Positions 23,272 through 36,205 of a stretch of DNA of 45,743 nucleotides are shown here, one piece after another. Made by a program: the position numbers and the translations under genes. The stretch's first letter is position 1. Every line of letters starts with the position of its first letter. The notes under the pieces are model-generated. The model was given only the letters and a program-made list of their open reading frames with translations. It ran no database searches and was not told the DNA's origin. Origin of the DNA: Bacteroidota bacterium (GTDB lineage: Bacteria > Bacteroidota > Bacteroidia > Bacteroidales > JABHKC01); contig JABHKC010000204.1 of NCBI GenBank assembly GCA_018692315.1, positions 1 to 45,743 on the forward strand, in the 5' to 3' direction.

Positions 23272-25188
23272 TTAATTTGGAGGATACAATAATGTATCCG
23301 ATGCCAGCATTTTTATTTGGTAGCCTTCGCCTGGGTTCATATTTCCAATATTATTTATACCATACAAAGGCCAATAAACCAAACCAACACCACTTTTTGC
23401 CATAATAATATTTTGCGAGATTCCTGTAAGTATAGTGTCTATTGCTCCGCTGTTTTGGCGAAGGTAGCCCAGAATATTCCAGCCAGCCAGCAAATTTACC
23501 GGTGTTGTTTCGGGGACAACAGGAATGCCGGCAACTTCAAGTATTTTGAAAGTATCCATTTTTACCTGATAGCCTTCGCCAATCGATAAATCTCCAATAT
23601 TGTTTATATTGTATAGCGGCCAATAAACCAGGCCTGCTTCATCTTTCATTATTATAAGATTGGTATCAATTTCGGAAAAAACAGAATCAAAGTTTGGAAA
23701 ATCGGCATCAATATATGTTGAAATTATTGACCAACCTTCCAATAAGTCTATAAATTGTTTTGTGGGTTCTGGAAAACTTATATCTATTTTACAAAAAATG
23801 AAATCCAAATCCCAATATACTGGAGGTGAATCAATTAAAAAAGTATCCATTCCAAAAGTAAATTCTGAATAAAATACTTCATCGGAAATGTATATTCCGG
23901 TTGCATTCATTTTTAGATGAGGCCATAGAAAATATGTACTATCTTTTAGTATAGGAATATCAACAAATTTTACTTGGCCGGAAGAATCTAAAATAAATAT
24001 AACATAACTAGGATTATCTAATTGAAATGTGTCTTGACCAATTATGTAGGAGGAGGAAAATGGTGTAAAAGCAGGTTTAATTGCTATATGCAAATCATTT
24101 TGACTACTTAGAAAAATTTGGTGTGCATTATAGGTATGTAAACCTTGAGTTGAAAAAGCCCAGATTGGATTCATTAAACTATCGAAACGAGCGACTACTA
24201 ATTCATTTGAATTTTGCGAAGAATTGTTATATAATGTATCACTACCTATAACTATCATAGAATCATAAAAATAGCTAGTACCATAAATATCTCCATTGGT
24301 TGCAAAACAACTATTCGCAATTAAACTTCCTCCCAGACAAATTGTATCTATAAGAAGCAAATTGAAATTTTGATCATATTTTAAAAAAATTGGGGTAACA
24401 TTACTCCCAGAATTACTAAACAAAGTTAAACCATTAAATGTACAAGATGGCGATAATGAAAATGCACTAATAAATATATTATTCTCTACAAATTGGATAT
24501 TTGAAACACTTTCAGTATTTATTCCCTGTATGGTTTTTGACGATAATAAATTCCCAATTGTATCAAGTTTTAATATATAACCATCATAATCGCCTGGATT
24601 TGACATAATTGTAGTATTATTCATTGAGATTGTACCTGCATACCTCCCAAATATATAAATATTTCCTGCTTGATCTGAAGTTATTTCATACTGATAAGTT
24701 GTTTGAGTTATGCCAATATCTGTAATAAATTGTTCATTGCCATATTGATCATATTTAGCCAAAACTACACCATCAGAGTATTGGGGATAAAACCAACTCC
24801 CATTCCAAACAAAGCCACCACCGGCATTATGTGCTAATATATATATATTACCATAATTATCTATATACATTCTAGGCCACGAAAAATAACTTAATAGGTG
24901 CTTTTTCGCCCAAAGAGCATGTCCATCTGGCGATAATTTTAATAAATATCGACCACCTATTGTTAATGCAACAGTGTCAATATAATAAAATAGGGTTGTA
25001 TCACTACCGTATTCCATGAGATAATAAGTATTACCAAATTCATCAACATCTGTTTCATAGATTGTATTTGAATAATACTCGGAGGCTTGGTCATCAGAAT
25101 ATAAAAGCCAGTCGTAGTTGAAATTTTGAGAATAAGAGGAAACTGAAATGACAGATAATAGAATAAAAAGAAAAAAGTTTTTTTTCAT
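23272..25188 (-). CDS. Secreted beta-propeller protein with a duplicated C-terminal GWS/GEGYQ module
   Basis: From the preferred start (Met7 of the longest frame, MKKNFFLFILLSVISVSSYS, a clean signal peptide), 638 residues; the long frame begins at 25206. Residues about 25-480 contain propeller-type repeats (D-x-x-GN-x-Y, L-x-x-DG-x-x-LWAK, KYDQYGN). The last 155 residues hold two copies of a module: LLEGWSIISTYI to IGEGYQVKM and LLAGWNILGYL to PGEGYQIKM, each with IM, VYWPLY and NIGN/NIGD. The same module lies in the plus-strand protein at 32588. There is no T9SS type A tail after it, so the module might itself be the terminal signal or a binding domain. Function unknown. Confidence 0.85.
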   Translation of the reverse strand: MKKNFFLFILLSVISVSSYSQNFNYDWLLYSDDQASEYYSNTIYETDVDEFGNTYYLMEYGSDTTLFYYIDTVALTIGGRYLLKLSPDGHALWAKKHLLSYFSWPRMYIDNYGNIYILAHNAGGGFVWNGSWFYPQYSDGVVLAKYDQYGNEQFITDIGITQTTYQYEITSDQAGNIYIFGRYAGTISMNNTTIMSNPGDYDGYILKLDTIGNLLSSKTIQGINTESVSNIQFVENNIFISAFSLSPSCTFNGLTLFSNSGSNVTPIFLKYDQNFNLLLIDTICLGGSLIANSCFATNGDIYGTSYFYDSMIVIGSDTLYNNSSQNSNELVVARFDSLMNPIWAFSTQGLHTYNAHQIFLSSQNDLHIAIKPAFTPFSSSYIIGQDTFQLDNPSYVIFILDSSGQVKFVDIPILKDSTYFLWPHLKMNATGIYISDEVFYSEFTFGMDTFLIDSPPVYWDLDFIFCKIDISFPEPTKQFIDLLEGWSIISTYIDADFPNFDSVFSEIDTNLIIMKDEAGLVYWPLYNINNIGDLSIGEGYQVKMDTFKILEVAGIPVVPETTPVNLLAGWNILGYLRQNSGAIDTILTGISQNIIMAKSGVGLVYWPLYGINNIGNMNPGEGYQIKMLASDTLLYPPN

Positions 25189-25386
25189 GATTTTTGTTTT
25201 AGTCATCCGATGATTTGATAATTATTTAATATTGTTCATTTTCTTTGTTAGCACATAGTTAGTTGTAATTAAATTATAAAATTAAGCATTTTGTATTAAA
25301 TGAACTCTTCTTTGAATTTAGTTTATACAAATTTATTTGCCCCAATTCAAAAAGCTTATTACTCTTTGGAAAGTTGCAAAAGAAAA

Positions 25387-25423
25387 GAGTCCCTGCAATC
25401 TTTCCTGAGAAAGCAGGGATCTC
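25387..25423. repeat. REP-like hairpin (TCCCTGC/GCAGGGA)
   Basis: GAGTCCCTGC and GCAGGGATCTC form an imperfect stem around a 14-base spacer. Same family as the next hairpin, with the CTGC/GCAG core. Confidence 0.65.
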
Positions 25424-25447
25424 ATTAAAGCAAACAAAATTTTGAAA

Positions 25448-25472
25448 GGATTCCTGCATTCGCAGGAATGTC
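25448..25472. repeat. REP-like hairpin (ATTCCTGC/GCAGGAAT)
   Basis: ATTCCTGC (25450-25457), loop ATTC, GCAGGAAT (25462-25469): a perfect 8-bp stem. The GGATTCCTGCATTCGCAGGA type is a widely dispersed bacterial intergenic palindrome. Confidence 0.75.
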
Positions 25473-25620
25473 AAACTTCTTGTAATTAATAATTCACAAT
25501 TATAATACTCCTTAGAATAGGATTGGAAGTTGATTTATTAAAAAAACAAAATCAGGAGAAGTCGGGTAGTGAATTGTCAAAATTCGTAGTAAATTTGCAA
25601 ATTATTTTAAAATTTTAATT

Positions 25621-26610
25621 ATGGGAATAGTATTAAGCGGAATCAGGCCTACGGGCAACTTACATATAGGCAATTATTTTGGAGCAATGCAGAATTTCTT
25701 GAAAATGCAGGAAGAGAACGACTGCTATTTTTTCATTGCCGACTATCATTCTCTAACAACGCATCCAACCCCGGGCGACCTTCATAATAGTGTAAGACAA
25801 GTATTTGCAGAATATCTTGCCTGTGGTTTAGATCCGGAGAAAGCAACAATCTATATTCAGAGCGATTTGCCCGAAACCGCCGAATTGTATCTTTTGCTCA
25901 ATATGAATAGTTATATTGGCGAATTGGAAAGGACAACTTCTTTCAAAGATAAAGTGCGACAACAGCCAGAAAACGTAAATGCAGGTCTGCTTACATATCC
26001 GGTTTTGATGACTGCCGATATTTTAATTCATAATGCCGAGAAAGTTCCTGTTGGAAAAGATCAGGAACAAAATCTCGAAATGGCTCGTAAATTTGCCAAA
26101 CGCTTCAATCATATCTATAAAGTAAATTATTTTAACGAACCTCAGGCATATAACTTTGGCAATGAATTGATTAAGATTCCCGGACTCGACGGTAGCGGAA
26201 AAATGGGCAAATCGGAAGGGAACGGAATTTTCCTTATCGACGATGAAAAAACAATTAAGAAAAAAGTGATGCGAGCCGTAACAGATAGCGGTCCTACTGA
26301 AATGAACCAGAAAATTTCTGAGCCCGTTCAAAATTTGTTTACAATTATGGATATTGTTTCTGCGAAAGATACCGTGCAGTTTTTTAAAGAAAAATATGCA
26401 AGCTGTGAGATACGCTATGGCGATTTGAAAAAACAACTTGCCGAAGATTTGAATAAGTTCATTTCTCCTATTAGGGAAAAAATCAATGATATTTATTCTG
26501 ATGAAAAATACTTGCACGAAGTTGCAAAATTGGGGCAGGAAAAAGCTCAGTTAAGTTCCAAAAAAACAGTTCAGGAAGTTCGCGAAATAATTGGTTTTAA
26601 GACGTTTTGA
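25621..26610 (+). CDS. trpS: Tryptophanyl-tRNA synthetase
   Basis: 329 residues, a normal length. Class I signatures: RPTGNLHIGNYFGAM (HIGH motif at 15-18), FFIADYHSLTTH, VPVGKDQEQNLEMAR near 141-155 and KMGKSEGN (KMSKS motif) near 193. It charges tRNA-Trp with tryptophan in the cytoplasm. Preceded by a possible -7 box TAAATTTG (25590-25597) without a clear -33. It converges on the MMPL exporter gene, leaving 12 bp between the stops. No T-box or leader peptide is visible. Confidence 0.97.
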   Translation: MGIVLSGIRPTGNLHIGNYFGAMQNFLKMQEENDCYFFIADYHSLTTHPTPGDLHNSVRQVFAEYLACGLDPEKATIYIQSDLPETAELYLLLNMNSYIGELERTTSFKDKVRQQPENVNAGLLTYPVLMTADILIHNAEKVPVGKDQEQNLEMARKFAKRFNHIYKVNYFNEPQAYNFGNELIKIPGLDGSGKMGKSEGNGIFLIDDEKTIKKKVMRAVTDSGPTEMNQKISEPVQNLFTIMDIVSAKDTVQFFKEKYASCEIRYGDLKKQLAEDLNKFISPIREKINDIYSDEKYLHEVAKLGQEKAQLSSKKTVQEVREIIGFKTF

Positions 26611-26622
26611 TTTGATGAAATA

Positions 26623-28995
26623 TTAAAACCTCAAATCCTCCAACTCAATATCTTCTTCTTCTTCAAGAATTTGCAGTAGTGGCTCTTTGAAGGATTTTTT
26701 GGTTATCGAACTTTCGAGCGAAAGCAATAAAGATGGAAGTAAAAGCAAATTCGAAAGAGTTGCAACAAATAGGGTGATTGAAACAAGCATCCCAAGTGCC
26801 ACAGTACCACCAAAACTTGATGCAACAAATATTCCAAAACCAAAAAACAAAATTACTGAGGTATATAACATGCTTACACCGGTTTCGTTTATTGCCGAAA
26901 TTACCGATTTGCTAATATCCCAATCGGTAACTTTTAGCTCCTGTCGTAGTTTTGCAAGAAAATGAATTGAGCCATCCACCGAAATTCCAAAGGCAATACT
27001 AAAAACCAAAACAGTTGAAGGTTTAATTGGAATTCCAAAATATCCCATAATAGCAGCCGTCAGCAAGAGAGGTATAAGATTTGGAATTAAGGAAATTACT
27101 GTCATTCGCAAGGATGAAAACATCCAGGTCATAAACAGCGATATAACAAATATAGCAAGAATTAGACTTGTAAAAAGATTTCTAATCAGATAGTTAGCTC
27201 CCTTAAAATAGACTATACTTGTGCCAGTCAATGAAACATCAAATTTATCTTTCGGAAATATTTTGTTGATATCTTTATTAATATTTTCGTTCAGTTCTAC
27301 CATGATGTCGGTGCCAACATCTGCAATTTTGAAACTTATTCGGGCAATTTGTTTAGTGCTGTCTATAAAAGAACTAATCAGTTTGTTCTTAGAATCGTCT
27401 TTCGAGATATACTTCATTATAAATCCGGTTTCTTGTTTACTCGGAAGTTTATAGTGTTTTTCTTTGCCACTGTAGTAGGCTTGCCGCAGAAATTTATAGG
27501 CATCGGCAATAGAAAACGATGTTGATAGTTGTGGATATTTTTCTAATTCGGTTTGGAGCTTGGCAATTTTTTTAAGAGTAGATAAATTATAAACTCCATT
27601 TTTCTTTTTAGTATCAATTACGATTTCGAGAGGCATGACACCGTTAAAATTTTTCTCGAAAAATTTTAAATCCAAAAAAATAGGATCGTCCTTAGGAACG
27701 TCTGCAAGTATGTAACCAGTATTTTTCATCAGAGAAATCCCAATTCCTCCTAATATTAAAAGCAATGCAGTAGCGGAGTAAATTACTGTGCGACTGTTAA
27801 TTGTAAAGTGCACAAGATATTTTACAATATTCCGCATTATTTTGTTTTCGAGATGTCGTGTTTGCCTATTGGTTGGTGCAGATGTAAAACTGAAAAATAT
27901 AGGAATCAGTAAAATTGACAGTGCAAAAACTCCCATAATATTCAGAGATGCAATTATTCCAAACTCTTTTAGAATATCGCTGCTTGTGAGGATAAAAGTT
28001 GCAAAACCAGCTGCAGTTGTTAAATTTGTAAGAAATGTTGCATTCCCAATTTTATGAATTACTCGTTGAAGAGCTTTAATTTTGTTCCCATGATTTTTAT
28101 ATTCCTGATGGTATTTGTTCAGGAGAAAAACACTATTTGGAATTCCAATTACAATAATCAATGGAGGTATCAAACCCGTTAGAATTGTAATTTGATAATG
28201 AAAAAGAACCATTGAGCCAACAGCCCAAATCACACCAATGCAAACAACGAGGATAGGGAAAATTATTACTTTGAACGATCTGAAAAATAAAAATAATATT
28301 GTAGCAGAAACAAGCAAAGCCAGTACAACAAATAAAGAAAGTTCTGTTCGGATTTTTTGGGTAACCAAAGTTCGGGTATATGCAAGTCCTGAATGTCGGA
28401 GATGAAGATCATACTTCTCTTCAAATTGATGTGTAAGTTTTTCAATGTTAGCAATAAGCTGTTCTCTGTCGCGAGAATTTAATAAATCTTTATTTATGGT
28501 TAGAGCCAGCAGATAGGTTTTGGTGCTATCGTTGTAAAGCATTCCGTTATAAAATGGCAAGGAATATAAAACTTTAGCAAGGCTATCTAATTCTTTTTGT
28601 GAAGAAATTGCATCAGAAAAAATTGGCTTAATCTCAAATTTTTTGGTTTGAGAATTTTTGAGGATATTGTAGCTATGCCCAATCGATACTATTCCATTTA
28701 CACCTGGAATATTTGCCAGGCTATCGCCAAGTTTTTTCCAATCATTAAACTTGTTAAGCTTAAAGAAATCCGGATCCTGTACACCTATCACCAAGATATT
28801 TACATCTTCGCCAAACTTTTTTTTAAATTCTTGATATTCAATAAAAGTTGTATCGTGCTCAGGAAGTAATGGTGCAAATTCGTAAGAAATAGATATTTTT
28901 GATGCTTGATATGCCATGAAAATGGTAATCAATCCCAATGCTGTAAGAAATACTGCTCTATTTCTTAAAATTATCCGTGCTACAACGATCCACAT
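26623..28995 (-). CDS. MMPL/RND-superfamily exporter
   Basis: 790 residues. The RND pattern is repeated twice: a membrane segment near 10-28, a large periplasmic loop (35-205), five membrane segments (about 215-365), another helix near 400, a second loop (430-600) and a final group of five (605-775). PLIIVIGIPNSVFLLNKYH and VFSIAFGISVDGSIHFLAKLR are the conserved TM4-type segments of each half. The family (HAE3/MMPL) moves hydrophobic molecules or lipids with proton motive force. No adaptor protein or outer-membrane channel is adjacent, so the substrate is unknown. Minus-strand -7-like TACTTTTG at 29031-29024, without a good -33. Confidence 0.93.
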   Translation of the reverse strand: MWIVVARIILRNRAVFLTALGLITIFMAYQASKISISYEFAPLLPEHDTTFIEYQEFKKKFGEDVNILVIGVQDPDFFKLNKFNDWKKLGDSLANIPGVNGIVSIGHSYNILKNSQTKKFEIKPIFSDAISSQKELDSLAKVLYSLPFYNGMLYNDSTKTYLLALTINKDLLNSRDREQLIANIEKLTHQFEEKYDLHLRHSGLAYTRTLVTQKIRTELSLFVVLALLVSATILFLFFRSFKVIIFPILVVCIGVIWAVGSMVLFHYQITILTGLIPPLIIVIGIPNSVFLLNKYHQEYKNHGNKIKALQRVIHKIGNATFLTNLTTAAGFATFILTSSDILKEFGIIASLNIMGVFALSILLIPIFFSFTSAPTNRQTRHLENKIMRNIVKYLVHFTINSRTVIYSATALLLILGGIGISLMKNTGYILADVPKDDPIFLDLKFFEKNFNGVMPLEIVIDTKKKNGVYNLSTLKKIAKLQTELEKYPQLSTSFSIADAYKFLRQAYYSGKEKHYKLPSKQETGFIMKYISKDDSKNKLISSFIDSTKQIARISFKIADVGTDIMVELNENINKDINKIFPKDKFDVSLTGTSIVYFKGANYLIRNLFTSLILAIFVISLFMTWMFSSLRMTVISLIPNLIPLLLTAAIMGYFGIPIKPSTVLVFSIAFGISVDGSIHFLAKLRQELKVTDWDISKSVISAINETGVSMLYTSVILFFGFGIFVASSFGGTVALGMLVSITLFVATLSNLLLLPSLLLSLESSITKKSFKEPLLQILEEEEDIELEDLRF

Positions 28996-29092
28996 TTACT
29001 TATAATTTCACAATTTGACAAAGCAAAAGTAATAATTTTATTAAGTCTTTGGTTGAAAAAAACTTATATTATATTTCTGAAGTATTTGGTTT

Positions 29093-29557
29093 TTACCAAT
29101 AATTTTTCATAATTTCTTTTGTCCACTTGGCTTGTTTTATTTCACCTTTCGGTAAAAACTCCACAAAAACGGGTTTTATATCAATTATTGGAGTTTGGTC
29201 TATAGCATCAAAATTTGAAACAAACAATGTTCTTCCTTCCTTTTTTAGAAGATTGACGGTGCACAAACCCAAGGTATTTAGTCTGTTTTTTTTTCGCTGA
29301 GCAAAAATGCCTGTTTCAGGAAGTTCCATATTTTCACGAGGGTGAAAACTGCCACACAAGATTTTATCTACTTTATGAAAATGATATATTATTTCTAAAT
29401 GTGAAAATTGTTCAATGCCATCAAAACATTCAATTGGCAGAGATTCAATTAATTCTATTTCTGAAATTACTTCTGCCCAATTATCGTCTGTTGGAATTTT
29501 GCGGCAATTTCTTACGTAAGCTATTGGGCTTATTATTATGTTTTCTGGGCTTTTCAT
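29093..29557 (-). CDS. TrmO/TsaA-family tRNA methyltransferase
   Basis: 154 residues. The UPF0066/TsaA pattern is complete: ISPIAYVRN at the start, FDGIEQFSHLEIIYHFH, HPREN, PETGIFAQRKKNRLNTLGL, and FDAIDQTPIIDIKPV. TrmO N6-methylates threonylcarbamoyl-A37 in tRNA-Thr using SAM. This protein has only the N-terminal catalytic part; the 235-residue E. coli enzyme carries an additional C-terminal domain. Short forms are common in Bacteroidota and archaea and may have other targets, so the substrate is only probable. Monocistronic. Confidence 0.9.
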   Translation of the reverse strand: MKSPENIIISPIAYVRNCRKIPTDDNWAEVISEIELIESLPIECFDGIEQFSHLEIIYHFHKVDKILCGSFHPRENMELPETGIFAQRKKNRLNTLGLCTVNLLKKEGRTLFVSNFDAIDQTPIIDIKPVFVEFLPKGEIKQAKWTKEIMKNYW

Positions 29558-29649
29558 TATTTATTAAGTAAATGCTTTGCAGTGGAAAATATTGATTACA
29601 ATGAAACTACCATAAATTTACTTTTGAAATTATTAGAAAACCGGATGTT

Positions 29650-32301
29650 TTACATTTTAATAAACTTAAAATATTGCCTCGAACTTTGATTTTCAAAATT
29701 CACAAAATAAAAGCCCGGTTTAAGCTTGCTTATATCAAGTTTTAACTGTCCTGACTTTCTGTTTTTTAGATTAAAAATTTGCAGAGTTTTGCCGGATAAA
29801 TCAGAAATTAAGACTCTTGAATCAGTTTTGTTGTTTAGATTATAGTTAACAAAAAGCTGGTTTTGTGCGGGATTTGGGAAAATACTTATAATATCTTTGT
29901 TAAAATTATCACCTTCAATGGCACTTGCTCCAGCAAAAATATTAATATTGTCGAGGTATAAATCGTTGCCATTGTCGTTTATTCCTGAAAATTTGATTAG
30001 AATTTCGTTGCTTCCGGCAAACTGCGATAAATCAATAGTATCTTTTCGCCAGTCTGATTCTTGCTGTGGAACAAATCTGCCACTTGCAATTCCATCAACT
30101 GTAGTCAGGCTTTCTCCGCCATTTGCATATAGCAAATATTCAAAACTATTTCCACAATCTGTGGAGACATATATTTTCAAAGAATCTTTTTTGACAGAAA
30201 CTCTTTTTCGGTAGGCAACTTTATAAGTCAATGTAATTTGACCGCTTTCAGGTACTGAAATCAAAGGACTTATTAAATCGTCTATCTGCCCGTTTCGCGG
30301 CATATAGTCGTAGCAATTAAGATTTGCAGATAAAAAGCTGTTTGTAATTCCACTGGTAGAATCGGTTTGCCAGGTTTTGTTGTAGTCGTAATTTGCTGAA
30401 AACCAAGGCGATGAATTTGACAATAGATCAATATTTTCAAAATCTTCAAAAATAGGAAGGTCTTGATTTTCAATTCTTTTAAGTTCTACGATACCTCTAT
30501 TGTTGTAAATATCTAATTCTTCAACAATAGTATCAAGTGTAATTTTAAAAGTGATAATGTTGCTGCCCAAAGTTAAAGGAATTCCGGTAAAAGTAACTGT
30601 ATCAGTTTCTCCGGCAAGAATATCTTCAGTAAGGGACAAAAATATTACTTCTAAATTGTTAAGCATCACAGTGATAGAGGCAGTGGAAATAGTGTTTTGT
30701 CCATTGTTTTGTATTACTATTTGTGGATTAATTTCGGAAAAGCAAGTGTATGAAAAATTGGGATTTAGAACTTCATTTATAGAAATATCCCAGTCAGGAG
30801 AAGCTGGTGGCACCGGAGTATGACTCATAGAAAGATAGTTGTAGGCAGCAAATACATCAATTATTCCCATTCCGTAAGTATTGTCTTCGCCCGGGTCGCC
30901 CAAATCATTAGCTGAATAATATAAGGCTTCGAGGATTTCTGTTCCTGTGAGGAAGGGATAAGCTTCTTTTAGTAAAAGTACTGCCCCGCTAACATGTGGC
31001 GCTGCCATCGATGTCCCTGACAAAGTTCCATAATCTTCAGTTCCTTGAGCCGAACGAACATCTTGCCCTGGAGCCGAAACTTCAGGTTTTATTGAGAGTG
31101 AGCCAGTGTCGGCACAAATTGTGGGTCCACGACTCGAAAAACTGCTAATCGTTAATCCTGATGTGTTCCCATTTAGACTTCCCACTGTGAAAGTGTTTAG
31201 AAGACTTTTTGCTATTAATTGAGGCTCGTGCAAACTTCCAGGTTCGGGACCGGTATTTCCTGCTGAGAAAACTATGGCTACTCCGGCAGCCTCGCATGCA
31301 TCTATTATAAAACTTTCTACCGAGTTGCATTGAGAAATTTCCGGTGGATTATCGACATAATATCCCCATGAATTATTTATCACATCAGGAATATCATCGT
31401 TTGTGTTTATATCGCCATCCGGATTTATTGCCCATTCGAAAGACATTAAAATAAGTTCAAGCGGGCGAACATCTGCCAAATTGCTGACAATTGGGTCGGC
31501 ATGAATCCAATACGCATTATAAGCTACTCCAATGGTGTCGTTGTTTTCTGCATCTAATCCACACATTGTGCCGGTGGTGTGAGTTCCATGGCTATGTCCC
31601 GAAATATCAACTGGATAAGGATAATTGTAAGCCATCCAGCATTGCGTTAGAGGCAAATGATTTCCAAGAAAGCGTTTTTTTAATGCTTTATGCTTAAAAT
31701 TTACTCCTGTATCTACACCCATGGCAATTCTATTTCTGCCGGTGTAGCCAATTGCCCACATGGCCGGAGCATTTATTGCATAAATTCCCGGTTCAGCTCC
31801 ATTTTGAGATTTGTTTACATTCATATGACTTTCTACTGGTTCAGCCATCACTATCTCGCCATTGTTCAATGATATAAGCTCAATTTCTTTTTTCTCAGCA
31901 AGTTGCAGAATTAATTCAGGTTTTGCACTTAAAGTGATAATATTTGCAATCCAATATTGGCGAAGGTTTTTAAAGCTATTCGTATTTTTATTTTCATAAA
32001 GATTTATAAAATAGATTAGTTTTTTCTGGACTTTTTCAGCATTATTCCTTAAAAGTTGAATGACTTTTTTTGGACGTTCAGAAACCAAAATTTTCCTTTT
32101 TTCAAACTCAAACTTTAATGAGTCGAGACTTTCTGAATTGTGCAATAAGAGGTAAATGTCGAAATAATTATTGGCATTTTCGGTTTTAACAATTTCAGAA
32201 AATATATTGTCGGCTATATATGCCTGTGCTAAAATAGTTTTTTCAGAAGCCCAAAAAAACAAATAACTAATTAAGAGTAAATAAAATAGTATTTTTTTCA
32301 T
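29650..32301 (-). CDS. S8 family serine protease with T9SS type A sorting domain
   Basis: 883 residues with signal peptide (1-25). An inhibitor-like N-terminal region (28-150) precedes the subtilisin domain. Catalytic residues are D197 (MGVDTGV), H238 (GHSHGTHTTG), N349 (SAGNT, oxyanion) and S431 (SGTSMAAPHVSGA). Beta-rich domains follow, including a CARDB-like segment (about 530-620) and a MAM/jellyroll-like one. The tail PNPAQNQLFVNY to LKPGFYFVNF and final YFKFIKM is a type A T9SS signal. An exported, probably cell-surface protease. A -7-like TATCTTTG at 32328-32321 (minus strand) lies 20 bp before the start. One Cys sits near the active site (C247). Confidence 0.95.
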   Translation of the reverse strand: MKKILFYLLLISYLFFWASEKTILAQAYIADNIFSEIVKTENANNYFDIYLLLHNSESLDSLKFEFEKRKILVSERPKKVIQLLRNNAEKVQKKLIYFINLYENKNTNSFKNLRQYWIANIITLSAKPELILQLAEKKEIELISLNNGEIVMAEPVESHMNVNKSQNGAEPGIYAINAPAMWAIGYTGRNRIAMGVDTGVNFKHKALKKRFLGNHLPLTQCWMAYNYPYPVDISGHSHGTHTTGTMCGLDAENNDTIGVAYNAYWIHADPIVSNLADVRPLELILMSFEWAINPDGDINTNDDIPDVINNSWGYYVDNPPEISQCNSVESFIIDACEAAGVAIVFSAGNTGPEPGSLHEPQLIAKSLLNTFTVGSLNGNTSGLTISSFSSRGPTICADTGSLSIKPEVSAPGQDVRSAQGTEDYGTLSGTSMAAPHVSGAVLLLKEAYPFLTGTEILEALYYSANDLGDPGEDNTYGMGIIDVFAAYNYLSMSHTPVPPASPDWDISINEVLNPNFSYTCFSEINPQIVIQNNGQNTISTASITVMLNNLEVIFLSLTEDILAGETDTVTFTGIPLTLGSNIITFKITLDTIVEELDIYNNRGIVELKRIENQDLPIFEDFENIDLLSNSSPWFSANYDYNKTWQTDSTSGITNSFLSANLNCYDYMPRNGQIDDLISPLISVPESGQITLTYKVAYRKRVSVKKDSLKIYVSTDCGNSFEYLLYANGGESLTTVDGIASGRFVPQQESDWRKDTIDLSQFAGSNEILIKFSGINDNGNDLYLDNINIFAGASAIEGDNFNKDIISIFPNPAQNQLFVNYNLNNKTDSRVLISDLSGKTLQIFNLKNRKSGQLKLDISKLKPGFYFVNFENQSSRQYFKFIKM

Positions 32302-32389
32302 AATTTCAAATTTTAGGTTTCAAAGATAGGTTTTTTAAAGGTAAAGAAAAGATGAATATTTCTATCAAATCAATATAGGAAACACGGAT

Positions 32390-32515
32390 TTAGTTTTATT
32401 CATTCTCTGTGAATCTCAATGTTTTCATTGTGTCTCGTTGTGAAACAATTGTTTCATGGAGGAGCACGAAGAAACTCAAAGTTGCACATAGAATTAGAGA
32501 ACTTTTAACTTTTTA
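32390..32515. repeat. Imperfect inverted repeat with perfect 16-bp palindromic core
   Basis: The core TGAAACAATTGTTTCA (32441-32456) is a perfect palindrome. Sequence on both sides is loosely mirrored (TTTCATTGTGTC on the left against GAGCACGAAGAAAC on the right), giving an imperfect inverted repeat of over 100 bp. It lies between the divergent protease and propeller genes. It may be a degenerate dispersed repeat or carry an operator for the plus-strand gene, whose start is 131 bp away. Confidence 0.55.
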
Positions 32516-32587
32516 GAAAAAACCTTGCTTTTCATTTCAAATTGTTTTACTTTTAACCATTGAAATATTCACAAAAAACCAATTGTT

Positions 32588-35500
32588 ATGAAAGCAAGAG
32601 CTACTTTTTTCCTGATTCTTTTATTCAATACTATTTTTCTTTTTTCCCAGGAACCACAATTTGAATGGGCTGTTGGGTTTGGGGGTACAAGTTCAACTGT
32701 GTGTCGTTCTATCGAAGTTGATAATGCAGGAAATGTTTACTCATTGGGGACTTTTGCAGGGATTGTAGATTTTGATCCTGATACAGGAGTTTATTTTCTT
32801 ACTTCAAATGGAGGTAATGATATTTTTATTACAAAGTTAAATTCTTCCGGCAATTTTGTTTGGGCAAAAAGTTTTGGCAGTAATTCAAGTGATGGTGGAA
32901 ATTCTATAGATATAGATGCTTTCGGAAATATTTATGTGTCAGGATTTTTTAAAGATACAACCGATTTTGATCCAGGGATAGGAGTTTTTAATCTTATTTC
33001 AAATGGCAATGATGACATTTATATTTCAAAGTTTGATTCTTTAGGTAATTTTATATGGGCAAAAACTATGGGAGGGAGCGAAAATGATGGTTGTATGTCT
33101 ATTGTTGTTGATTCTATTGGATGTGTTTATAGTACAGGGATATTTGTTGGAATCGCTGATTTTGATCCAGGTATAGGAGTTTATAATCTTACCTCAAATG
33201 GTCAAAATGATGTTTTTGTATCAAAGTTAGATTCTTCAGGTAATTTTATTTGGGCGAAAAGTTTCAGTGGAAGTGAAACTATGGCGGGAAATTCAATAAC
33301 ACTTGATACTTCAGAAAAAGTTATTATTACTGGAGTTTTTTACGGTACAGTTGATTTTGATCCAGGTATTGGAGTTTACAATCTTACCTCAAATGGAGAA
33401 ATTGATGTTTTTATTTCCAAATTAGATTCTTCAGGTAATTTTATTTGGGCGAAAAGCTTTGGAAGTAATTCAACAGATGCAGGCAATTTTATTGCAACTG
33501 ATGCTGACAGAAATATTTATGTAACTGGATTTTTTCATAATACGGTTGATTTTGATCCAGGTATAGGAGTTTTTAATCTTACATCAATTGGTCAACATGA
33601 TGTTTTTATATCAAAGCTAAATTCTTCAGGTAATTTTATTTGGGCAAAAGGTATTGGAGGGATTCAAGGTGATGTCGGTTATTGCACCACAATTGATTCT
33701 ACTGGAGGTGTTTATACAACAGGATATTTTGAAGGAACAGTTGATTTTGATCCAGATATTGGAGTTTATAATCTTACCTCAAATGGTCAAAATGATGTTT
33801 TTATATCAAAGTTAGATTCTTCCGGCAATTTTGTTTGGGCGAAAAGTTTCGGCGGAAATAACTCTGATTATGGTTACTGCTTAAATGTTGATTTAAGCGA
33901 AAATGTTTATTCTGCAGGATATTTTAATGGAACAGTTGATTTTGATCCTGAAAGTGGAGTATTTAATATTACATCTGGAAACGTGGATGCATTTGTATTA
34001 AAACTTTCTCACCCTCTATCAATTGCAAATTTTCATACGTCTGATACAATAATAATAGTAGGAGATACTACCCAATTTTTCGACCTTACAACCAGCAATC
34101 CTACAAACTGGCTTTGGGATTTTGGAGATGGAACAACAGACACTATTCAAAATCCTATTCATATTTATCAAAACCCTGGAGTTTATACTGTAAGTTTGAT
34201 AGTTGGAAATGGTTTTTCTACCGATACATTGGTAAAAGAAAACTATATCACTGTTTTGCTTCAGCCAAATTGGGCAGTTGATACTACTTTAAGTTCTCAC
34301 ACAATCCTTGCCCAACCAACAATTCCTGCCAAAATCAATGGAGTACAAATCCAATCAGGCGACTACATCGGAGTTTTCTACGATTTAGATTCGGGAGGCA
34401 TTGCTTGCGGTGGCTATGCCGAATGGACAGGAAACCAAGTTTCTTTGCTTGCCTATGGTACGGAAACTGGCATGAACAACGGCTTTGCTGCCAACGAAGA
34501 AATTAAGTGGAAAATCTGGCGGGCTTCCGATTATCAGGAATTTGATGCTGTGGCAACTTACCTACCCATGCCACAGCAAGGCAATTTTGTAAATGGTGGG
34601 ATTAGTGGTTTGGAATCACTTTCGGCGGTTTCGCAAATGCAAATCTCAGATTCTTTAAGTCATGTTGCATGTTTCGGAGACTCGACCGGTGCAATTTATA
34701 TTTCGGTGATAGGTGGGCTCCCGCCATATTCATTTTTGTGGTCGGATGGTAATACCACCCAAAACTATACAAACATCATTTCGGGAAATTATTTTCTGAC
34801 TATTAGCGATGCCTCAGGTCAAAACCTTATAGATTCCTTTGAGATTTCTCAGCCTGCATCAGAAATTACAATTTCGATTACCAAAACAGATGTTTCTGTG
34901 GAAAGTGCAGCAGACGGCTCCATCGAACTTGATGTTTTGGGAGGTGTCCCTCCATATTCATACATTTGGAGCAATGGAGAAACTACTGAGGATATTTTTA
35001 ATTTGGCAGCGGGAATTTATTCAGTAACAGTTAGTGATTCAGTTTTTTGTGTTGTTCATGAAAGTGTTGAAATTTCAGACTCTACTAATGCTCAGTCAAT
35101 TATTTTAGAGGCAGGCTTTTCAATGATTTCAACCTATATCAATCCATACTTTCCAATTTTAGATTCTGTTTTTAGTTCCGTGATTGGCAATCTTGAATTA
35201 ATAGCAGATGATGAAGGGAATGTTTTTTGGCCAATATTTTCCATTAATCAAATTGGAGATATAGTTATTGGAGAAGGCTACAAAGTCATAATGAATTATG
35301 CTGATTCTCTTCAAATCATCGGAGAAGATGTTGTCCCTGAACTCAATCCTGTTCCTATACCAGAAGGCTGGAGTATGTTTGGTTATTTGAGGCAATCTCC
35401 TGCACCAATTGACACAATGCTCTATACAATAACGACTAATATTATCCTTGTAAAAGATGATAAAGGGCATGTCTATTGGCCGCAGTATGGTTTTAATCTT

Positions 35501-36205
35501 ATTGGGGATATTACTCCTGGTGAAGGTTATCAGATTAAAATGAATGGGTTGGATACTTTAGTTTATCTTTCAGACAGCATTTCATGGTTCTGTGGGGACT
35601 TCATTTCGGATATTGAGGGCAACCAATACAGCACTGTTGAAATTGGCACTCAATGCTGGATGGCTGAGAATATAAATATTGGTATAAAGATACCGACAAA
35701 CTATCCACAGACCAATAATTTGATTATTGAAAAATATTGTTACAACAACGATACACTTTATTGTAATACATATGGAGGGCTTTATGAATGGGATGAAGCA
35801 ATGATGCATATTCAAACAGAAGGATCGCAAGGTATATGTCCAATAGGTTGGCATATACCAACAGATTCTGAATGGTGTACTTTGGAAAACTTTGTGGACA
35901 GCGATACTATTGAATGTGATACTACGGGCTGGAGAGGGATAGATGCTGGAGGAAATTTAAAAGGAACTGGAACAAACTATTGGAATAGCCCAAATATCGG
36001 AGCAACAAATTTATATGGATTTAATGCTCTTGGTGCTGGCCGTACTAGTCAATCGTCTGATAACATTTTAGAATATGCCTATTTTTGGACTTCAACTATT
36101 GGCAGTTCAGGTCGAAAATGCAGACTTTTGCATTATTCAAATTCACAAATACTAAGAAGCTATAATAATTGGGATGGATTCTCTGTGCGTTGTGTAAAAG
36201 ATTAA
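32588..36205 (+). CDS. Large secreted mosaic protein: 7-repeat propeller, PKD, SprB-like repeats, GWS/GEGYQ module and FISUMP domain
   Basis: 1205 residues with signal peptide (1-21). Seven propeller repeats have DFDP at 61, 126, 191, 256, 321, 386 and 451, an exact 65-residue period, each with NVFISKLDSSGNF(I/V)WAKSF-type strands. A PKD domain follows (about 480-556, WDFGDGTTDTIQNP), then a domain with QSGDYIGVFYDLDSGGIACGGY (560-680) often seen in secreted Bacteroidota proteins. Two SprB-like repeats (690-830, GGLPPYSFLWSDG and GGVPPYSYIWSNGE) and the duplicated GWS/GEGYQ module (840-995) come next. The C terminus (1005-1205) is a FISUMP domain (IGTQCWMAENI, CPIGWHIPTDSEW, GFNALGAGRT). Probably a surface or secreted adhesion protein. 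No T9SS tail. Confidence 0.92.
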   Translation: MKARATFFLILLFNTIFLFSQEPQFEWAVGFGGTSSTVCRSIEVDNAGNVYSLGTFAGIVDFDPDTGVYFLTSNGGNDIFITKLNSSGNFVWAKSFGSNSSDGGNSIDIDAFGNIYVSGFFKDTTDFDPGIGVFNLISNGNDDIYISKFDSLGNFIWAKTMGGSENDGCMSIVVDSIGCVYSTGIFVGIADFDPGIGVYNLTSNGQNDVFVSKLDSSGNFIWAKSFSGSETMAGNSITLDTSEKVIITGVFYGTVDFDPGIGVYNLTSNGEIDVFISKLDSSGNFIWAKSFGSNSTDAGNFIATDADRNIYVTGFFHNTVDFDPGIGVFNLTSIGQHDVFISKLNSSGNFIWAKGIGGIQGDVGYCTTIDSTGGVYTTGYFEGTVDFDPDIGVYNLTSNGQNDVFISKLDSSGNFVWAKSFGGNNSDYGYCLNVDLSENVYSAGYFNGTVDFDPESGVFNITSGNVDAFVLKLSHPLSIANFHTSDTIIIVGDTTQFFDLTTSNPTNWLWDFGDGTTDTIQNPIHIYQNPGVYTVSLIVGNGFSTDTLVKENYITVLLQPNWAVDTTLSSHTILAQPTIPAKINGVQIQSGDYIGVFYDLDSGGIACGGYAEWTGNQVSLLAYGTETGMNNGFAANEEIKWKIWRASDYQEFDAVATYLPMPQQGNFVNGGISGLESLSAVSQMQISDSLSHVACFGDSTGAIYISVIGGLPPYSFLWSDGNTTQNYTNIISGNYFLTISDASGQNLIDSFEISQPASEITISITKTDVSVESAADGSIELDVLGGVPPYSYIWSNGETTEDIFNLAAGIYSVTVSDSVFCVVHESVEISDSTNAQSIILEAGFSMISTYINPYFPILDSVFSSVIGNLELIADDEGNVFWPIFSINQIGDIVIGEGYKVIMNYADSLQIIGEDVVPELNPVPIPEGWSMFGYLRQSPAPIDTMLYTITTNIILVKDDKGHVYWPQYGFNLIGDITPGEGYQIKMNGLDTLVYLSDSISWFCGDFISDIEGNQYSTVEIGTQCWMAENINIGIKIPTNYPQTNNLIIEKYCYNNDTLYCNTYGGLYEWDEAMMHIQTEGSQGICPIGWHIPTDSEWCTLENFVDSDTIECDTTGWRGIDAGGNLKGTGTNYWNSPNIGATNLYGFNALGAGRTSQSSDNILEYAYFWTSTIGSSGRKCRLLHYSNSQILRSYNNWDGFSVRCVKD

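Follow-up and report, generated by a model that had tools for sequence, protein, structure and literature searches.

The window, that is, the whole analysed stretch of 45,743 nucleotides from a Bacteroidota bacterium (contig JABHKC010000204.1), encodes two putative secreted proteins, P0001 (23272..25206, minus strand, 644 aa) and P0002 (32588..36205, plus strand, 1205 aa), which contain four related units of about 77 residues, two in tandem per protein. The pair of units, hereafter called the double-GW module, may be a so far unrecognised tag that marks proteins for secretion. P0001 begins with a signal peptide, called by eye and by a simple rule, continues with a body giving weak matches of beta-propeller type and ends with the module, consisting of repeat 1 (23506..23754, minus strand, residues 485–567) and repeat 2 (23275..23505, minus strand, residues 568–644), the latter being the final 77 residues of the protein and ending in LYPPN followed by the stop codon. 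P0002 contains, in this order, a signal peptide called by eye, SBBP repeats, PKD, an unnamed D1 domain (34250..34636, plus strand, residues 555–683), SprB repeats, repeat 1 (35096..35344, plus strand, residues 837–919) and repeat 2 (35345..35569, plus strand, residues 920–994) of the module, and a C-terminal FISUMP domain (PF09603/TIGR02145; 35636..36199, plus strand, residues 1017–1204). Both proteins and both repeat pairs were found as given in the preliminary description of this DNA, with the P0001 pair at the very C-terminus and the P0002 pair preceding FISUMP.

Neither protein carries a tail of the type IX secretion system (T9SS): P0001 shows no match to TIGR04183/PF18962, custom tail hidden Markov models (HMMs) match neither P0001 nor P0002, and P0002 gives a sub-threshold TIGR04183 match (E 0.036) at residues 722–763, away from its end. 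The S8 subtilase encoded between them (29650..32301, minus strand) possesses a type A T9SS tail (PF18962, 1.5e-12; TIGR04183, 6.8e-12).

The four units are related beyond chance, their six pairwise local scores being 101–201 against shuffled means of 23–26 and a highest shuffled score of 47 (300 shuffles each). When profiles of the first and the second repeat were made from 191 module copies, they aligned with an hhalign probability of 99.9 (E 6e-32), ten column-shuffled controls reaching 1.84 at most. Like-positioned repeats of P0001 and P0002 have 33 and 38 identical residues out of 66 and are thus closer than the two repeats within one protein (29 and 25), which dates the duplication to before the origin of the two genes. 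The motif proposed earlier, with a GWS start leading to GYLRQ, a VYWP core and a GEGYQ end, is correct in outline, but GYLRQ is confined to the second copies, and copy 1 of P0002 (GFSMIS, VFWP, GEGYKVIM) and copy 2 of P0001 (GWN instead of GWS) depart from it. Conserved W, YWP, GxGY and K positions recur across families; in distant members GW (or GY) opens each repeat and GxGY stands near the repeat end, and the distant-member profile aligns end to end with the close one (100%, E 5e-50).

The preliminary description recognised no named domain family in the module, a view to be given up if a named domain matched, and no consistent match to Pfam or NCBIfam was obtained. Scans of the window sequences and of 49-, 83- and 34-member alignments against Pfam, NCBIfam and PHROGs returned no consistent family, the stray library matches involving one to three members each (best 0.0005), while a search of PDB by sequence profile gave best E values of 0.75 and 0.98, both to unrelated proteins. 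Among the titles and abstracts listed by literature searches, none dealt with the module domain; most subscription journals and preprints lie outside that search, so absence from print is not claimed.

The stable fold expected earlier was borne out by AlphaFold2, which modelled the double repeat (83 rows) with a predicted local distance difference test score (pLDDT) of 97.4 and a predicted template modelling score of 0.89, and repeat 2 of P0001 alone (68 rows) in the same architecture with a pLDDT of 95.2. Each repeat is predicted to consist of short strands and two short helices, the pair forming a compact domain of two alpha/beta repeats. Foldseek found no match in PDB at E≤0.001, which is no proof of a new fold, and VIA-align applied to Foldseek's own matches gave best Z values of 3.9 and 4.6, none being 5 or higher; HPr, cupins and CBM_E1, considered as fold relatives, stayed below a Z of 5 and were regarded as sharing a common arrangement. 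In BFVD, a library of viral models, two models match the fold with a Foldseek probability of 1.00 (E 1.2e-3 and 1.2e-2), one of them from an uncultured marine phage; the BFVD model A0A8D9C8P8 shares the module fold by Foldseek.

One search with the 157-residue module of the genome to which the window belongs (G000; 4.98 Mb, 248 contigs) resulted in 108 module matches, with one module per open reading frame (ORF) and never more; these counts omit L099 and L101, which overlap other loci. The 101 ORFs with a closed C-terminus (7 open at the C-end being omitted) were divided by position into 47 of class A, with 0–6 residues after the module, 47 of class B, with 194–251 residues after it, and 7 others. 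Class A comprises 40 ORFs with a full-length module and 7 with a partial one. The tail HMM matched 0/47 class A and 41/47 class B ORFs, the latter figure being partly circular as the HMM was built from class B. Whole-protein Pfam scans, subject to a closed N-end and length limits, took in 34 class A proteins out of 47 and 35 class B proteins out of 47, and 25 of 46 families were shown for each class. PF18962 was present in 28 of the 35 class B proteins, and the families shown for class A do not include it. The layout of class B is mostly module, D2 domain and T9SS tail, other endings including FISUMP and FGE-sulfatase; the supposition that the remainder of 190–260 residues after the module is mostly FISUMP proved wrong.

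Among the 38 class A proteins with a closed N-end, a Sec-type signal was called in 35, a Gln near the cut in 28 and a lipobox in none, all by a simple rule rather than SignalP. The bodies of class A proteins include SprB repeats, PKD, SBBP, C25, C10 and S8 peptidases and CotH, several of which are common to class B, and for 21 of the 38 N-terminal parts a homologue exists in class B at 1e-20. In DNA downstream of 46 class A ORFs a tail-like match was detected three times; the explanation is in one case an in-frame stop that splits the gene, in another the next ORF in the same frame and in the third a neighbouring gene. Two irregularities were noted at L098 (G000 C117:30443-30904) and L115 (G000 C176:1348-2304): one module gene is interrupted by an in-frame TAA, and at L115 two module ORFs are consecutive in the same frame with one stop codon between them.

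Outside this genome, the 157-residue module was present in 9 of the 41 genomes searched with it (the own one and 40 relatives of the order), some being many-copy; a profile search of the order gave a module match in 81/393 genomes, and a broader profile did so in 103/395 genomes drawn from the phylum, both at E≤0.001. The named carriers include metagenome-assembled or single-cell genomes of Bacteroidales, Flavobacteriales, Cryomorphaceae and Ignavibacteria. SprA was found in 371 of the 393 genomes of the order, including 81/81 module genomes, and the module in 0/22 SprA-less genomes, two of the 22 being assigned by elimination (hypergeometric p 0.005, kinship ignored).

C25 peptidases, such as gingipains and PorU, are standard T9SS clients, with which abstracts on P. 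gingivalis agree, and their C-termini were compared in 14 module genomes. Out of 120 C25 matches 80 were read, 40 were not, and 76 had a closed C-end, the four ORFs open at the C-end being omitted; the loci were picked by score and not by C-terminus, and those read numbered 8/8 in G000, 7/8 in G144, 4/5 in G069, 6/6 in G239, 3/3 in G031, 2/2 in G315, 4/4 in G040, 2/2 in G004, 2/2 in G122, 13/16 in G335, 9/25 in G097, 10/15 in G268, 9/14 in G073 and 1/10 in G176. A T9SS tail is present in 66 of the 76 proteins, in eight of them after the module, nine proteins end with the module, and one (L365) is a short ORF whose stop lies 534 residues beyond the beginning of its C25 domain. Excluding 13 proteins that are PorU-like by length leaves 53 with a tail, nine with the module and one short. 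The nine module-terminal proteins, which come from the six genomes G000, G335, G268, G073, G176 and G097, belonging to the three families f1, f74 and f98, have 0–5 residues after the module. No tail was found in them by a broader HMM at E 0.05, nor in the 754–1500 bases downstream; this HMM was built partly from C25 tails, and it alone detected the tail of L371 (1 of the 66) and 4 of 20 control tails. In the control, a T9SS tail ends 20/20 C25 proteins read from 8 module-less genomes (8 of 13 genomes searched; 20 of 52 matches, high-scoring PorU-type ones being left out).

Five of the nine module-terminal C25 proteins have a paralogue with a tail in the same genome. The closest pair, L359 with the module and L360 with a tail, is 80.6% identical over the first 700 aa; along the alignment the identity stays at 63–95% through 840 columns, falls to 46% in the following 60 and is 10–28% thereafter. 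The other module and tail pairs are L358/L356 (71% over 437), L338/L337 (69%), L331/L336 (66%) and L297/L294 (56%), and in some of them the likeness stops earlier. In family f5, an independent lineage of genomes, all 30 genes that were read (five genomes; 30 of 51 matches) end 0–3 residues after the module. A Pfam scan of six f5 proteins gave one CBM9, one RGL11 and one PL14, and two f5 ORFs show weak mid-protein matches to the tail HMM (E 0.002 and 0.007) that are not C-terminal. The f5 genomes hold 46–63 TIGR04183 matches each alongside the module-terminal genes and hence use the two endings in parallel.

Three kinds of T9SS C-terminal domain (CTD), types A, B and C, are described in PMC12618676, PMC10202324 and PMC9936825, the last of which treats T9SS-dependent proteins without a recognisable CTD as unexplained. 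We favour, at a confidence close to even but short of it, the still unproven reading that the double-GW module is a T9SS-linked C-terminal sorting or docking domain, a fourth kind beside these three. On this view the two units make up one compact domain, placed at the C-terminal end, or close to it, of proteins that T9SS-bearing Bacteroidota export by Sec; where a T9SS tail or, as in P0002, FISUMP follows, the module would serve for docking alone or would be superfluous to export. We infer recognition by the T9SS, the crossing of the outer membrane, the partner and the later fate of the exported domain. The reading is preferred owing to the occurrence of either tail or module on the same enzyme, the exact C-terminal placement in several families, the single copy per protein and the export signals, and its basis comprises Sec-type signals without a lipobox, the lack of a tail in the terminal proteins and the absence of the module from the SprA-less genomes sampled. 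If it is right, the predicted surface proteome gains proteins missed by current tail models, 47 ORFs in the own genome. The presence of the module in place of a type A tail on close paralogous proteases allows a direct test of T9SS signals beyond types A to C.

With the type A CTD (TIGR04183/PF18962), an immunoglobulin (Ig)-like seven-stranded sandwich of about 100 aa according to PMC12618676 and PMC10202324, the module shares the C-terminal location, the Sec-exported proteins, the T9SS genomes, the C25 cargo, the many copies per genome and close paralogues ending in either of the two. It differs in that the module alignments give no sequence match to that domain, in its size and predicted build (about 155 aa, two alpha/beta repeats) and in often standing upstream of a type A tail. 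The type B CTD, presented in PMC12618676 as a sequence-unrelated second signal of 150–235 aa docking at the surface via shuttles, is likewise a longer C-terminal signal unrelated to type A in sequence, but module sequences gave no match to TIGR04131/PF13585. Type B proteins usually have a cognate PorP/SprF gene next to them. Such a pairing was considered for the module and dropped, as none of the 13 PorP/SprF genes found in the own genome adjoins a module-terminal gene; the nearest one lies at a distance of about 4 kb, on C48, in a comparison made by eye and limited by contig ends. The type C CTD (ChiA type, cl41395) is an example of a further signal type (PMC10202324 and PMC9936825); the module has no consistent NCBIfam match, with the presence of a cl41395 model in the release not checked.

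Several observations weigh against a sorting role. The predicted alpha/beta fold is unlike the seven-stranded Ig-like beta-sandwich of the type A CTD, and the 41 class B ORFs holding both the module and a T9SS tail do not need the module for export. No terminal-only sequence feature was seen in the own-genome modules, since the conserved end (YPAN/YPPN), once considered as a C-terminal signal and dropped for this reason, is common to classes A and B, and mean module identity is 0.48 within class A, 0.43 within class B and 0.44 between them. The module tree of the own genome requires 17 class switches, although the classes do cluster, as 500 shuffles of the classes on the tree gave a mean of 29.6 and a minimum of 18. 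P0002 ends in FISUMP, its module being internal and a tail absent. The co-occurrence with SprA is weak evidence because SprA is found in 371/393 genomes and kinship was ignored. Finally, related repeats occur in viral-contig ORFs without an evident signal peptide, where a T9SS signal would be senseless. The preliminary suggestion of a module in place of a T9SS tail, perhaps for surface attachment, therefore stands in part as regards the tail: the proteins ending in it, P0001 included, lack a tail (0/47), and the module occupies the place of the tail in paralogues, but with a tail downstream in 41/47 class B ORFs and an end shared by both classes it is not simply a tail substitute.

These related GW repeats, the same repeat by profile, were found in 11 viral contigs from IMG/VR (L422–L432). 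They differ from the bacterial modules in having no evident signal peptide and up to two double modules per ORF, as in L423 and L425; in L425, the ORF before the module ORF matches phage tail-fibre families over a stretch of collagen-like repeats. A tblastn search of named phage records with the module gave one weak match only (E 0.09), to a 1.6-kb record. This viral occurrence suggests that the repeat is in essence a binding unit, perhaps for something on the outer surface.

It is quite conceivable, if on the whole doubtful, that the module serves general binding outside the cell, its ligand being a glycan, a surface polymer or an outer-membrane protein and its effect adhesion or retention, and that the tail-less proteins are exported by an unrecognised route or signal. 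The viral repeats with their doubled modules and tail-fibre-matching neighbour, the two BFVD fold matches, the coexistence of about half of the own-genome copies with a T9SS tail, and the terminal f5 copies on polysaccharide lyases and a CBM9 protein (3/6 proteins scanned) all agree with such a function. The position and copy number of binding modules usually differ between proteins, whereas here there is one module per ORF, 94/101 fall into two tight position classes and 30/30 are terminal in f5; it would also be left unexplained that 9 of the 10 tail-less C25 proteins end in the module. The binding and the sorting readings could both be true together. A spacer or cap stabilising the C-terminal part, with no sorting role, appears very improbable: many class B modules do stand stalk-like between the homologous D1 and D2 domains, but W, YWP, GxGY and K are conserved across families, and close paralogues end in either module or tail.

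The module-terminal proteins might instead be truncated forms of proteins with module and tail, now periplasmic or non-functional, and the 17 class switches and the own-genome module gene broken by an in-frame stop would fit such tail loss. We consider this unlikely, since a single genome has 40 terminal ORFs in which the module is full-length, terminal ORFs bear signal peptides and varied bodies, the ends fall 0–6 residues from the domain boundary, and the same arrangement is met in f1, f5, f74 and f98. Furthermore, no tail-like stretch lies downstream of 43/46 own-genome terminal ORFs, 9/9 C25 ORFs and 29/30 f5 ORFs, the four downstream matches being a stop-split gene, a following in-frame ORF and two neighbouring genes.

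The T9SS-linked reading can be taken further, although in this extended form it is rather doubtful: as a tandem alpha/beta repeat, the module would add to the T9SS a fourth C-terminal signal of unrelated structure, which can take the place of the type A domain on one and the same enzyme and has multiplied about a hundredfold in some Bacteroidales, and marine phages would carry the same repeat in particle-associated proteins, possibly docking on the outer-membrane partner that normally receives the host proteins.

The D1 domain of P0002 (GDYIGVFYD...CGGY...W; D1 HMM domain E 2.1e-47), for which no Pfam best match was obtained at E≤1, belongs to a domain (GDYIGVFYDSLGTLACGGY...DGF..GE.F.WKIW) seen at own-genome loci L054–L139. 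It stands just before the module in 15/38 class A and 26/42 class B proteins, so the idea that it always precedes the module was wrong. The D2 domain, located between the module and the T9SS tail, is a homologue of D1 (hhalign 99.0, E 5e-18). The own genome also has a large T9SS-linked repertoire, with at least 150 TIGR04183 matches (150 scored of 456 candidates), 13 PorP/SprF-like genes and 20 FISUMP matches. FISUMP resembles the module in being a paralogous extracytoplasmic domain, which follows the module in P0002, and 11 of the 20 FISUMP matches are in module ORFs (paired by ORF length and contig); it is nevertheless a separate domain, its match in P0002 lying outside the module.

In the own genome eight module copies are no more than 10 bases from the end of their contig (C17, C41, C68, C88, C109, C169, C171 and C177); assembly may therefore be interrupted by the repeat family, and more copies may exist than were counted. 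In marine Flavobacteriales and related genomes (L213, L214, L219, L221, L223, L228, L232 and L233) the module is followed by a different C-terminal region of 172–178 residues, which often ends like IYDDGSIE and by eye is unlike a T9SS tail. In G004 and G122, both of family f5, some matches cover profile positions of about 75–155 only, corresponding to the second repeat, and occur beside the double form.

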